NCBI RefSeq assembly: GCF_013410215.1
Contig: NZ_JACCFQ010000001.1
Coordinates: 310,001 to 374,000, forward strand
DNA: 64,000 bases
From: Nesterenkonia sandarakina
GTDB taxonomy: Bacteria > Actinomycetota > Actinomycetes > Actinomycetales > Micrococcaceae
Direction of reading: 5' to 3'
Both the position numbers and the translations under genes were made by a program. Below, piece after piece: positions 43,789 to 47,660 of the stretch; position 1 is the first letter of the stretch, and every line of letters begins with the position of its first letter. The notes beneath the pieces are model-generated. The model searched no databases and had not been told where the DNA came from. It saw only the letters and a program-made list of their open reading frames with translations.

Positions 43789-44484
43789 TCAGCCAGACTG
43801 TTCCGCGTCGCGCTCGTCTTCGAGCTCTGGTTCGATGAAACCCAGCTGAGTCGCCCGGATCAGCAGCTGCACCCGGTCTCGCACGCCGAAACGAGTGCAT
43901 AGGCGGCCCAGGTGCGCCTTGATCGCACCTTCGGTGAGCACCATCCGCGTCGCAATCTCGCGGTTGCTGTATCCCCGCGCCAGAAGATTCAACACCTCTG
44001 ATTCCCGGGGTGGGATCCGCGGCAGATAGTCCGATCCAGCGAGCGCCGCAGAGAATTCCTCGGCCTCGTTGACGGCGTTGAACTCAAGCCTTCGCGCCAC
44101 GTCCGGAGAGATCGGCACCGAGCTGCCGTGCACCTGCCTGACCGCCTCCAACACCTCATCCGCGGTGGCGTCTTTGACGATATAGCCCTTGGCTCCGGCG
44201 TTCAGGGCCTGCAGCGCGTGCCCCTCCGAACTGAACGTGGTCACGGCCAGCACCGAGGTCTCCGGAGCGATCGCCATGACCGCGGCAGTCGCCTCGACCC
44301 CACCCATCTCGGGCATCTTCAGATCCATGATGACGACGTCGGGCCTCGTCTCGCGAACGACTTCTACGACCTCGAGCCCGTTGGCCGCCTCTCCAATACA
44401 TTCCATATCTGGGGCGGAGTCCACATAGGCGCGCAGCGCAGCGCGCATGATCGGGTGGTCGTCAGCTACGACGAGACGGAGCAT
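43789..44484 (-). CDS. LuxR/NarL-family response regulator
   Basis: A 231-residue response regulator: a CheY-like receiver (residues 1-118; acidic pocket ADDHP at 7-11, phosphoacceptor Asp54 in VVIMDLKMPEMGG, Thr82 in AVTTFSSEG, Lys104 in YIVKDA) and a LuxR-type DNA-binding domain (about 155-215; PRIPPRESEVLNLLARGYSN, REIATRMVLTEGAIKAHLGR). It is divergent from the small peptide and sensor-kinase genes across an AT-rich spacer, and is the likely cognate partner of that kinase. Its own start is ATG at 44484 without a clear Shine-Dalgarno. Confidence 0.93.
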   Translation of the reverse strand: MLRLVVADDHPIMRAALRAYVDSAPDMECIGEAANGLEVVEVVRETRPDVVIMDLKMPEMGGVEATAAVMAIAPETSVLAVTTFSSEGHALQALNAGAKGYIVKDATADEVLEAVRQVHGSSVPISPDVARRLEFNAVNEAEEFSAALAGSDYLPRIPPRESEVLNLLARGYSNREIATRMVLTEGAIKAHLGRLCTRFGVRDRVQLLIRATQLGFIEPELEDERDAEQSG

Positions 44485-44711
44485 CGCTGAACCTGTTCTT
44501 TCTCGGCCTTAGGCACCTGGCGCGGTGCTCCAGCCTATCCGACCTACCCGGTGGCACCCCTCGACGGGCAGCTTTCTGTGGCCTGAGACACCAAAATCAA
44601 GCAATTCCGGATAAATTAGCTACTTAAGTCCACTATACCTAAATCTAGGCACACCTTAATCTAATATTACACGCTACAAACTCTCAGGTACACCCTCGAA
44701 AGGAACAGAAA
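44485..44711. promoter_or_regulatory. AT-rich divergent regulatory region of the two-component locus
   Basis: This spacer drops to about 40% GC (44581-44700), far below the rest of the window. It contains the inverted repeat CCTA-AATC-TAGG (44638-44649) and several A/T-rich hexamers that could be -10 elements (TATACC, TAATCT, TATTAC). It would hold promoters for the response regulator (minus) and for the peptide/kinase pair (plus). No promoter can be assigned with certainty. Confidence 0.55.
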
Positions 44712-44864
44712 ATGTCTCTATCTTTGTTTGTCTACCAAATTGCCGTCACTTTCGCATTAGTAACCACTGCTGTTCTTGGATTCTTTGATATCACAGGCGT
44801 CGAGGCTGAAGGGTTTATACGTTCATTCTTTTGTCGAGCCTTTCCCAACGCTTCGGCCTGCTGA
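44712..44864 (+). CDS. candidate 50-residue secreted/signalling peptide, uncatalogued
   Basis: An ATG with AAAGGAA 7-8 nt upstream opens a 50-codon frame ending in TGA at 44862-44864. The product begins MSLSLFVYQIAVTFALVTT, has a continuous hydrophobic segment (residues about 5-25), a short acidic middle (Asp26, Glu31, Glu33) and an aromatic, cationic C-terminus, FIRSFFCRAFPNASAC, with Cys41 and Cys50 as its only cysteines, the last being the C-terminal residue. A V-E-A sequence at 30-32 could be a signal-peptidase site. GC is about 45% against roughly 65-70% for its neighbours. It sits between a divergent LuxR regulator and, 39 nt downstream, the kinase gene. It could be an exported peptide signal sensed by that kinase, or a small membrane regulator of it. 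No homologue is known to me. Confidence 0.6.
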   Translation: MSLSLFVYQIAVTFALVTTAVLGFFDITGVEAEGFIRSFFCRAFPNASAC

Positions 44865-44903: not shown

Positions 44904-46076
44904 GTGACTTTTTCGAGTGATGTGACCCCTAGCCGTCGAGTCCTGACGATCCTCACGCTGGGCACCCTCGGCGGAATATCGGCCGACATCACGCTGGCAC
45001 TGATCTTCGATCCGGATTACCTCAGCGTGACACTGCAGTACGGTTACCTGATCTGGGTTCTCGCCGTTGCCCTCTTCTGGCTGCACCCCGCGGCTGGGGC
45101 ACTCGCAGCACTCGCTGGGGCGGCCTTGGGACTGGTCACAGGTTCCCCATTCGAAACTCTCATCCTGGTCACCCTGTTCAGCGGGCTGTCTGCGCTGTAC
45201 TGCGCTCCGTGGGCACGGCGTATTTATCTGGCGCTGGCATTATGCCTTGCCGTCAACGTCGGCCTCGCGGAGAGTGACCCCATCCTCGCCGCCGGATTCG
45301 GCCTGACAACGGGAGCCTTGATGACTCTCTCCTACACCGTGGGCCGAGCCACTCGAAAGCAGATGTCATCCCGCCTGTCGGCCGAACGCGACCTTGTACA
45401 ACTTCAGGCGACCCACGAGGAGGCTCTCGCAGGAGAGCGTCGCTCGATCGCCAGGGACCTCCATGACATCTTGGCCCACGACCTGACCGTGATCTCCATG
45501 CAGACCCAGGTGGCCGCTGCCACCGGCACCCCCGAATCTCGCGCAGCCGCCTTGAAGCAGATCTCCACCTCTGCCAGCGCGGCCCTGCACGATCTGCGAC
45601 GCGTACTCCTGGTGCTCCAGCGGGAGAACATCATCGAGGCCGGACCGGGCGACGCGCCCGAGCTGGACCTGGAGTCCGGCCTTCGGAGGTTCACCGACCG
45701 ACTCCAGGACCTCGGCTTCAAGGTGGAGACTTCGGTGCACGGCGACCTCGGGCGGCTCTCGCAGTCCGTGGGGGCATGCCTCTACAGGATCCTCCAGGAG
45801 TGCACCACAAATGTGGTGAAGCACGGCTCGAAGGGAAACGAGAGCAACGACTGCACCATCGAGGTCGAGGTGAAGGCAGATACCGTGAACCTCGCCGTGA
45901 CCAACCGCACCGAGGACAATCACGTCTCTGCCCTGCGACACCCCTCCTCGGGAACCGGGCTGATCAGCATGGAGGATCGCGCGGCAACCTTCGGGGGAAC
46001 CGTGGACGCCGGAGCGCCGGCTCATGGGATCTGGAGCGTGCAGGTCACCGGCATCCAGATGCGCCTGCTGCGCTGA
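44904..46076 (+). CDS. NarL/DesK-family sensor histidine kinase
   Basis: A 390-residue membrane sensor kinase. Four to five hydrophobic segments fill residues 13-145 with very short external loops, so it probably senses within the membrane or binds a small or hydrophobic ligand. The HisKA_3 dimerisation domain carries the phosphorylated His187 in ERRSIARDLHDILAHDLTVI. The HATPase domain shows the N-box LQECTTNVVKHG and the G-box SGTGLISMEDRAATFGG. The GTG at 44904 is the first start after an in-frame stop, but GGAGA directly abuts it; a GTG at 44922 is the alternative. Probable partner of the divergent LuxR-type regulator; probable co-transcription with the small peptide gene. Confidence 0.9.
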   Translation: MTFSSDVTPSRRVLTILTLGTLGGISADITLALIFDPDYLSVTLQYGYLIWVLAVALFWLHPAAGALAALAGAALGLVTGSPFETLILVTLFSGLSALYCAPWARRIYLALALCLAVNVGLAESDPILAAGFGLTTGALMTLSYTVGRATRKQMSSRLSAERDLVQLQATHEEALAGERRSIARDLHDILAHDLTVISMQTQVAAATGTPESRAAALKQISTSASAALHDLRRVLLVLQRENIIEAGPGDAPELDLESGLRRFTDRLQDLGFKVETSVHGDLGRLSQSVGACLYRILQECTTNVVKHGSKGNESNDCTIEVEVKADTVNLAVTNRTEDNHVSALRHPSSGTGLISMEDRAATFGGTVDAGAPAHGIWSVQVTGIQMRLLR

Positions 46077-46209: not shown

Positions 46210-46347
46210 ACTGGAATCAGCCGAGGTTCCGCTCCGAACCCTTGCACCGTAACTCGGAGCTCCTCGAGGCTGATGCCTCTTCCCTGAATCATGCATTAGT
46301 GATGCACGTCCAGCTTCAATTATAGACCTACGCCCCGGTCTGACTAG

Positions 46348-46361
46348 TGGACTTTGGTCCA
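46348..46361. promoter_or_regulatory. candidate operator upstream of acyl-CoA dehydrogenase
   Basis: A perfect inverted repeat TGGAC-TTTG-GTCCA lies 57 nt before the ATG in an otherwise AT-rich region, with a further A/T pair outside each arm. Confidence 0.5.
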
Positions 46362-46418
46362 GTGTTTGAAGATGCAACTAAGCACCACAGCTTGTGACTA
46401 TCGAGTAACATGTGTGCC

Positions 46419-47660
46419 ATGACACACCATGCTCCCGATGCCTCCGTTGACCCGGTCTATGACGTCTCCACCGCGCAGGACCTTGACTACTACGGGGTGT
46501 TTGATGACCTCCCCGAGGCTGACCGGCTGTGGTGGGCGCGCGCGAGAGAGTTCACCTCCGGGCTGGAGACGCGGATGGCCCAGCACTGGGAGCACGCCGA
46601 ATACCCGGTGGACCTGGTCCGCAAGGCCGGTGGCCTGGGCCTGCTGACCGACGGTGTAGACGTCTCGGCGGCCTCGATGGAGACGCTCTCCCCCATGGCC
46701 GCCGGTCTGGTCAACATGGAGACCTCTCGCGCCGATGGCTCGCTGGGCACAGCCCTGGCGGTGCAGGGCGGACTCGCGCTGCGTACGCTCGCCTATTTCG
46801 GCTCGGCCGACCAGAAGGCTGAGCATCTGACCAAGCTGGCCACCGCGGAGACCCTGGGCTCCTTCGCCCTGACCGAGCCGGCGCACGGGTCCGATTCGGT
46901 GTCCCTGTCCACCACGGCTCGTCTGGTCGGTGACGAGGACTCCGGGTACTACGTGCTCAACGGCGCGAAGAAGTGGATCGGCAACGGGGCTTCCGGCGGC
47001 CTGACCTTCACCTGGGCTCGAGTGGCCGGTGGCGTCCATGACGGCAACGTGCGGTGTTTCCTGGTGGATCAGGACACGCGTGGGTACCGGGCCGAGGTGA
47101 TCCAGGGCAAGGCCTCGCTGCGGGCCATCCACCAGGCATTGATCCAGTACGAGGACGTGGAGGTTCCAGCACACGCGGTGCTGCCCGGGTCCAAGACCTT
47201 CAAGGATGCCTCCAAGGTGCTCTTCGCCACCCGACTCGGCGTGGCCTGGTCCGCCGTCGGACATGCCTCAGCCCTGGTGGAGGCGGCGCTGAGCTACTCG
47301 AAGCAGCGCGAGCAGTTCAGCCGGCCGTTGGCCAGCTTCCAGCTCGTCCAGGAGCGGCTGACCTGGATGGTCTCAGAGCTGACCTCGATGCAGCTGCACG
47401 TGCGCCAGGTGACCGAACGCGATATGGCCGGGACCCTGACCGGACCGCAGGCCTCGCTGGCGAAGTACCACAACACCCGAAAGGCCCGGGCGATCGCGCA
47501 GGTCGCACGCGACATGCTCGGCGGCAACGGGATCCTGCTCAAGAACAAGGTTCCGCGTCACATGGCAGACATCGAGGCCATCCACACCTATGAGGGCACC
47601 GAATCTGTGCAGAGCCTGATCATCGGGCGGGATCTGACCGGCTATTCAGCCTTCGCCTGA
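46419..47660 (+). CDS. acyl-CoA dehydrogenase (glutaryl-CoA dehydrogenase-like)
   Basis: A 413-residue flavoenzyme that oxidises an acyl-CoA to enoyl-CoA. Motifs: FALTEPAHGSDSVSLSTTAR and YYVLNGAKKWIGNG (FAD/substrate-binding middle domain), RPLASFQLVQERLTWM, and ARDMLGGNGILLKNKVPRHM. The catalytic Glu is in the C-terminal IEAIHTYEGTESVQSLIIGR. The Arg/Glu pattern and sequence resemble glutaryl-CoA dehydrogenases and related group IV enzymes, but the acyl chain cannot be assigned. I use the ATG at 46419 (MTHHAPDAS); an ATG 9 bases earlier is also in frame. A palindrome about 60 nt upstream may bind a regulator. Confidence 0.88.
   Translation: MTHHAPDASVDPVYDVSTAQDLDYYGVFDDLPEADRLWWARAREFTSGLETRMAQHWEHAEYPVDLVRKAGGLGLLTDGVDVSAASMETLSPMAAGLVNMETSRADGSLGTALAVQGGLALRTLAYFGSADQKAEHLTKLATAETLGSFALTEPAHGSDSVSLSTTARLVGDEDSGYYVLNGAKKWIGNGASGGLTFTWARVAGGVHDGNVRCFLVDQDTRGYRAEVIQGKASLRAIHQALIQYEDVEVPAHAVLPGSKTFKDASKVLFATRLGVAWSAVGHASALVEAALSYSKQREQFSRPLASFQLVQERLTWMVSELTSMQLHVRQVTERDMAGTLTGPQASLAKYHNTRKARAIAQVARDMLGGNGILLKNKVPRHMADIEAIHTYEGTESVQSLIIGRDLTGYSAFA

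Follow-up and report, generated by a model that had tools for sequence, protein, structure and literature searches.

Quorum sensing in which a two-component system detects a peptide is known chiefly from Firmicutes. In the Agr systems a short, cysteine-containing C-terminal peptide is encoded beside a membrane kinase that lacks an extracellular domain, the kinase being of the HPK10 type and its partner a LytTR regulator. MgrB, which is linked to the sensor kinase PhoQ, is about 50 residues long and has a single helix and outward-facing cysteines. In the ComQXPA system of Bacillus, the precursor ComX is given as 52-73 residues (PMC4008528) and the kinase ComP is assigned to HPK7 (PMC8895600); a 2014 census reports ComQXPA from Firmicutes alone (PMC4008528).

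The locus described here lies in a window of 64,000 nucleotides from the 3.0 Mb genome of Nesterenkonia sandarakina (all coordinates are those of the window), and its same-genus relatives are other Nesterenkonia. The peptide precursor ORF (44712..44864, plus strand) encodes 50 residues from an ATG start and reads MSLSLF...FFCRAFPNASAC, with a hydrophobic N-terminal half and a C-terminal segment FFCRAFPNASAC (44826..44861, plus strand) that forms a two-cysteine (C-x8-C) loop. A ribosome-binding site, AAAGGA (44699..44704, plus strand), sits 7 nt upstream of the ATG; the same hexamer is found at the peptide ORF in six of nine Nesterenkonia species, with variants in the other three. The stop codon is 39 nt from the GTG start of a HisKA_3 histidine kinase on the same strand (44904..46076; Pfam HisKA_3, E 1.6e-14), and a NarL/LuxR-type response regulator with receiver and GerE domains diverges on the opposite strand (43789..44484, minus; Response_reg 2e-25, GerE 1.3e-12). 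The first-pass annotation had described a short gene with a good ribosome-binding site ahead of the kinase and opposite a LuxR-type regulator, with one hydrophobic helix and a cysteine-bounded C-terminus in its product. The coordinates and Pfam matches agree with this arrangement, and so does the peptide itself, with its hydrophobic N-terminal half and with C41 and C50 invariant in all nine species.

In the AlphaFold2 model of the kinase (mean pLDDT 85, pTM 0.55), six helices make up the N-terminal part, and the loops between them are 1-4 residues long. The sensor is predicted to have no extracellular domain, in line with the original description of a kinase with almost no extracellular loops. 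NCBIfam gave nothing at cut-off for the kinase or the regulator among the matches listed (for the regulator, the best 25 of 89), and the Pfam scan placed the peptide in no family at cut-off; DUF2759, at E 0.0046, fell below its own cut-off and was discarded. Five of the six flanking proteins belong to the phosphomethylpyrimidine kinase, acyl-CoA dehydrogenase, serine dehydratase, AMIN-like and DUF4916 families of Pfam, and the sixth is a 184-residue membrane protein that matches no family. No gene for an exporter, transporter, immunity protein or maturation or modifying enzyme was recognised among these six neighbours. The GC content is approximately 39-46% across 44550-44849, which takes in the intergenic region and the peptide gene, and approximately 60-75% in the flanks.

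By analogy, the best reading of the module is that it would work like ComX-ComP-ComA without the modifying enzyme. As in ComQXPA, a small peptide gene lies by a multi-helix kinase of the HisKA_3/HPK7 type and a NarL-type regulator, the precursor is of similar size, and the active part would be at the C-terminus. To judge from sequence and layout, however, the module is not a member of ComQXPA: it has two cysteines instead and its regulator is divergent, whereas the ComQXPA genes all lie on one strand. No match to the isoprenyl transferase ComQ was found among the six neighbouring proteins (one of which, the 184-residue membrane protein, matches no family). The peptide likewise gave no Pfam match to ComX. 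The ComX family has a tryptophan 5-10 residues from the C-terminus; none of the nine sequences of the window's clade contains a tryptophan, but some relatives from other genera do have one at that place. Nor is the module Agr. Its peptide is also short, contains cysteine and is encoded next to a kinase with no predicted extracellular domain, but the kinase is of the HisKA_3 type, the regulator carries GerE, and the second cysteine is at the very C-terminus. The AgrB protease (PF04647) had no match at E<=0.001 in the whole genome, which extends the earlier remark that no AgrB-like gene is adjacent.

The peptide ORF (44712-44864) is a genuine gene under selection. Its frame, length (50-51 residues) and both cysteines are kept in all eight other Nesterenkonia genomes that hold an orthologous kinase. 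In a search of 58 genomes the peptide was found at E<1e-10 in nine, exactly the nine (its own included) with the kinase at 73-100% identity, and a profile built from these nine sequences matched nine of the 30 genomes of the genus. Against 295 genomes of the family the profile returned the same nine and 12 weak matches (E 0.008 to 0.1), with no other clear match in that set. One weak match, to the C-terminal part of the peptide at E 0.008, came from a 2-kb contig piece of another genus (L046) with no kinase-like ORF and was judged to be chance. All nine peptides are encoded directly ahead of the kinase, and their C-termini fit [FIM]C[RA]AFP....C, with C41, A43, F44, P45 and C50 among the invariant residues. 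Over the nine orthologs, pN/pS averaged 0.33 in the peptide's own frame, as opposed to 1.27 and 2.08 when the alternative frames were read, and pN was below pS in the own frame in 36 of 36 pairs. Since coding selection is confined to the own frame, and frame and cysteines are conserved, the gene passes the conservation test for true orthologs, and the conservation of frame, cysteines and kinase synteny among relatives that keep the kinase, which the first-pass annotation had asked for, was found in eight of eight. Its suggestion of cleavage at a VEA sequence to give an 18-residue mature peptide finds no support: VEA is rejected as a conserved cleavage site, only the glutamate being invariant there among the nine.

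Mean identity among the nine orthologs is 61% in the sensor part of the kinase, 88% in its catalytic part and 65% in the peptide, a pattern that would fit, as expected, a receptor-ligand pair under change. Peptide divergence tracks the sensor and catalytic parts equally (Spearman 0.52 and 0.53, respectively), so the joint-divergence test is uninformative and lends specific co-evolution no support.

A wider family was traced from related kinases by reading the DNA upstream of them. For 70 loci the upstream search zone was set from the kinase match, and the peptides of L069 and L102 were found in this way. The shared layout is a divergent NarL/LuxR-type regulator, a small ORF with a C-terminal two-cysteine loop, and a six-helix HisKA_3 kinase; in 48 of 51 peptide-bearing relatives tested with phmmer, the best regulator match is upstream and divergent. 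A family search with the Micrococcus terreus kinase gave 30 loci, and 20 of the 21 read carry a two-cysteine ORF, with L065 cut off; the other nine belong to a same-genus group (group B, below) that was assessed separately through L011-L024. Two-cysteine ORFs were found in 25 of 40 further upstream regions. A kinase profile run against 396 genomes of the order carried the module into other families: its 30 loci comprise 13 with a peptide (the window's own included), two with a cysteine-less ORF and 15 with neither. The cysteine-less ORF encodes 15 residues, MGIFY[VI]FGKMIGIFR, and occupies the peptide's place behind a GGAGG site (L138, approximately 1400-1447; L141, reverse strand); by eye it aligns with endings of the CKLLGIC type. 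The ring is thus not universal. Lower-scoring kinases, which are a natural negative control, had a peptide in two of 38 usable upstream regions.

Among loci from named organisms we took the best 80 of 265 kinase loci, of which two are cut off and 78 could be assessed. By motif scan and reading by eye, 52 of these 78 have a peptide. The carriers are Nesterenkonia (including N. aurantiaca and N. sandarakina), Paeniglutamicibacter, Glutamicibacter, Arthrobacter, Micrococcus, Citricoccus, Kocuria, Rothia, Miniimonas, Oceanitalea, Microbacterium, one Micrococcaceae MAG and one Actinomycetales MAG. The 26 peptide-less loci are made up of 13 from a Nesterenkonia sister group, five from Chloroflexi, three with a same-strand upstream regulator and five others; five peptide-less loci were inspected in full. 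When the motif was applied strictly, with a start codon and on the kinase strand, 54 of 76 zones of 600 nt scored, a count that omits four of the 80 loci for missing upstream DNA and includes some false hits in Nesterenkonia group B. The controls gave 2/76 on the antisense strand, 6/76 in the next 600 nt upstream and 8.8/76 in dinucleotide shuffles.

The description of the peptide as uncatalogued holds for Pfam, NCBIfam and the PDB. With 27 family members as queries, NCBIfam (best E 0.021) and Pfam (best E 0.0046, below cut-off) returned nothing significant and no bacteriocin match, and a PDB profile search was equally without a significant result (best E 0.025). Nor did we find such a peptide-kinase system in Micrococcales described in openly licensed PMC papers, although subscription journals or preprints could hold one. 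What had been annotated as a lone ORF is upgraded to a member of a widespread and apparently undescribed family of peptide-plus-sensor modules.

The distribution of the peptide was placed on a quick maximum-likelihood tree of the kinases (LG+G4, 91 rows, many long branches). One supported clade holds 82 of the rows, 62 of them with the ORF (60 with the cysteines and two without); outside it none of nine rows has one. The peptide label changes nine times on the tree, compared with a mean of 26 in shuffles. Seven of the 80 named loci are left out of the tree (L237, L238, L246, L256, L262, L263 and L269; two with peptide, three without, two cut off), as are, from the order search, the peptide-less L145, L147, L150, L152 and L154-L157, as well as L137 and duplicates. 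Nesterenkonia group B forms one peptide-less branch of 13 rows, and its kinases, 37-40% identical, have no two-cysteine ORF between regulator and kinase. The 184-residue membrane protein of the window lies 3' of the kinase in 11 of the 13 group B loci and the acyl-CoA dehydrogenase is on the regulator side in 10, and these shared neighbours indicate that in most of group B the pair sits in the same chromosomal slot, inverted. The membrane protein also neighbours four of six tested Micrococcus loci, all of which bear the peptide. Loss of the peptide in group B is the simplest reading, though the tree alone cannot separate loss from gain. That 13 sister kinases stand without a peptide means that the kinase can manage without it or has another ligand. 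Hence the compact peptide-kinase-regulator module proposed at first sight stands for the eight orthologs and recurs with the same layout in other genera, but does not extend to the group B kinases, and two of its relatives have ORFs without cysteines.

Two genomes hold both forms. Nesterenkonia cremea (L209, L225) and Nesterenkonia sp. PF2B19 (L210, L217) each contain a group B kinase that has no peptide and, separately, a divergent module that has one; in N. cremea the two are approximately 6 kb apart.

The DNA shared by the two divergent promoters contains a conserved block, TTAGCTACTTAAGTCCACTAT (44616..44636), between regulator and peptide gene. It is a putative regulator binding site of the GACTTNAGTC type, with a consensus around TACTT[AT]AGTC[CT]ACTAT in the nine-species intergenic alignment, and it occurs once in the genome at <=3 mismatches. 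A GACNAAAGTC-like site recurs upstream of peptide genes. A related palindrome, [GT]ACNNAAGT[CA], was found in 19 of 64 stretches of 460 nt upstream of the peptide's end, compared with 1.4 in shuffles (maximum 5, 60 rounds), a count in which one locus was entered twice (L116 is the same as L276) and an excess that is partly circular, since the pattern was picked after some of the regions had been viewed. Of the 19 hits, the window's clade accounts for seven; the others are in Kocuria, Paeniglutamicibacter, Arthrobacter and further genomes. No clear result came from enumerating gapped palindromes across the regions upstream, and it was the clade alignment that yielded the operator. A second operator-like inverted repeat, TAGTGGACTTTGGTCCAGT (46345..46363), keeps its core AGTGGACTT..GTC in seven of seven aligned Nesterenkonia (the window's own included) and lies 47-65 nt before the ATG of the acyl-CoA dehydrogenase (46410..47660, plus strand; assigned by Pfam), which is a candidate target of the regulator. 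The 14-mer form of the operator has three copies in the genome, two at the peptide locus and one on a second contig. The presence of operator-like sites in the shared region and before the acyl-CoA dehydrogenase suggests autoregulation and one neighbouring target.

The gene and its selection, the conserved layout, the loop motif and the operator-like sites are established, and across species the peptide gene is genetically coupled to the kinase and regulator. With these features in hand, we think it likely that the peptide is a self-made signal sensed by the neighbouring kinase. The gene product would be the precursor, and its N-terminal hydrophobic segment would direct it to general Sec export, across the membrane or into it. 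The ten-residue loop CRAFPNASAC, probably closed by a disulfide, would then be presented outside, where the six-helix HisKA_3 kinase could bind it in or near the membrane. The kinase would in turn phosphorylate, or stop phosphorylating, the divergent LuxR-type regulator, which may bind the GACNAAAGTC-like sites in the promoter region that the two genes share, to close a feedback loop, and may also bind before the downstream acyl-CoA dehydrogenase.

The anatomy of the peptides bears on whether the product leaves the cell. In a table of 72 C-termini, which includes the window's and those of near-relatives, all 72 have a two-cysteine ending of the same kind. The loop has six inner residues in 44, five in 15 and seven to nine in 13, with eight in the window peptide. 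In 68 of the 72, the sequence ends 0-2 residues beyond the second cysteine. The first cysteine is preceded by a hydrophobic residue in 71 and followed directly by R or K in 39. The C-termini are otherwise highly diverse, short and often with Trp and a basic residue. Outside the window's clade, a crude rule assigns a Sec-like leader to 38 of 46 peptides, and those that pass have a linker ahead of the loop. In the window's clade, five of six satisfy the rule solely when an alternative start is used, and no clear signal-peptidase site is seen in the window peptide; five ORFs of 16-29 residues (four from Microbacterium, one from an Actinomycetales MAG) have no leader. Generic Sec export would fit, because so many relatives pass the crude rule and the genome has no AgrB match; the window clade is marginal. 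The marginal clade and the leaderless short ORFs count against export in the self-made-signal reading.

The main rival reading is that the peptide stays in the producer's membrane and adjusts the kinase in cis, as MgrB does with PhoQ, for feedback or redox control and with no cell-cell signalling. The window peptide resembles MgrB in having approximately 50 residues, one hydrophobic stretch and two cysteines beside a sensor kinase. A cis-acting regulator would suit a clade whose peptides consist of one hydrophobic stretch and a short two-cysteine tail with no clear cleavage site, a gene on the kinase strand only 39 nt from the kinase, and operator-like sites in the shared region. There was no MgrB-type Pfam match to the window peptide, though a protein of 50 residues can miss its family, and unlike MgrB most relatives outside the clade look cleavable by the crude rule, with their linker before the loop, and the peptide is encoded with the kinase that it possibly regulates. 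With some ORFs of just 15-29 residues and C-termini as diverse as these also at odds with it, we regard cis regulation as unlikely.

Improbable, in our estimate, is an effector role for the peptide, for example as a small bacteriocin, its production being controlled by a two-component system whose kinase senses something else. Short C-termini with two cysteines, in many cases also containing Trp and a basic residue, would be in keeping with an effector. Ten downstream ORFs, one per locus, were scanned: two encode MFS transporters and two nitroreductases, two match nothing, and SAICAR synthetase, an aldolase, DUF4135 and GerE occur once each. The MFS transporters and the DUF4135 protein would accord with an effector; the lack of any gene or family common to all ten does not, and neither do the absence of a recognised immunity, transporter or maturation gene at the window locus, the strict position ahead of the kinase in many genera, and the lack of a significant bacteriocin match in NCBIfam or Pfam. 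That the ORF serves as a leader or spacer whose product is irrelevant, its translation alone controlling the kinase gene, is suggested by its same-strand position, with 39 nt separating it from the start of the kinase, but is very hard to credit given selection at the amino-acid level, conserved cysteines, and signal-sequence-like leaders with a common C-terminal motif in distant genera.

The DUF4135 protein, a domain that we take to be the LanM dehydratase, belongs to Microbacterium sp. VKM Ac-2923 (L265, 3159-5041), in which a lanthipeptide-precursor-like ORF and this LanM-like protein come after the module. Elsewhere, outputs of this type are under the control of peptide-sensing systems, and it is plausible that these genes are the output of the Microbacterium module. 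The arrangement recalls the two-component regulation of lanthipeptides in actinobacteria in that LanM-like and LanA-like genes border a module, but differs in that the other nine scanned downstream ORFs include no recognised modifying enzyme of that kind.

The wider claim, which we favour with some hesitation, is of an undescribed class of peptide communication across Micrococcales. It would use Sec-exported or leaderless precursors with an aromatic C-terminal two-cysteine loop, each with its own divergent six-helix HisKA_3 kinase and NarL-type regulator and a conserved operator, and would be ComX-like without a dedicated modification or export enzyme. For Micrococcus, Kocuria, Glutamicibacter, Microbacterium and other genera, the module supplies defined peptides together with candidate receptors and operators, which opens cell-cell signalling there to direct tests. 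The authors of a 2026 study on competence in Micrococcus luteus state that they have no evidence that a signalling peptide or two-component system is dedicated to inducing competence, and they argue that density alone is not the trigger (PMC12849477). The module is present in Micrococcus species other than M. luteus, an observation of presence alone with no tie to competence. Kocuria sp. cx-455 (L257, L264) has two modules with different peptides in one genome, which suggests parallel channels.
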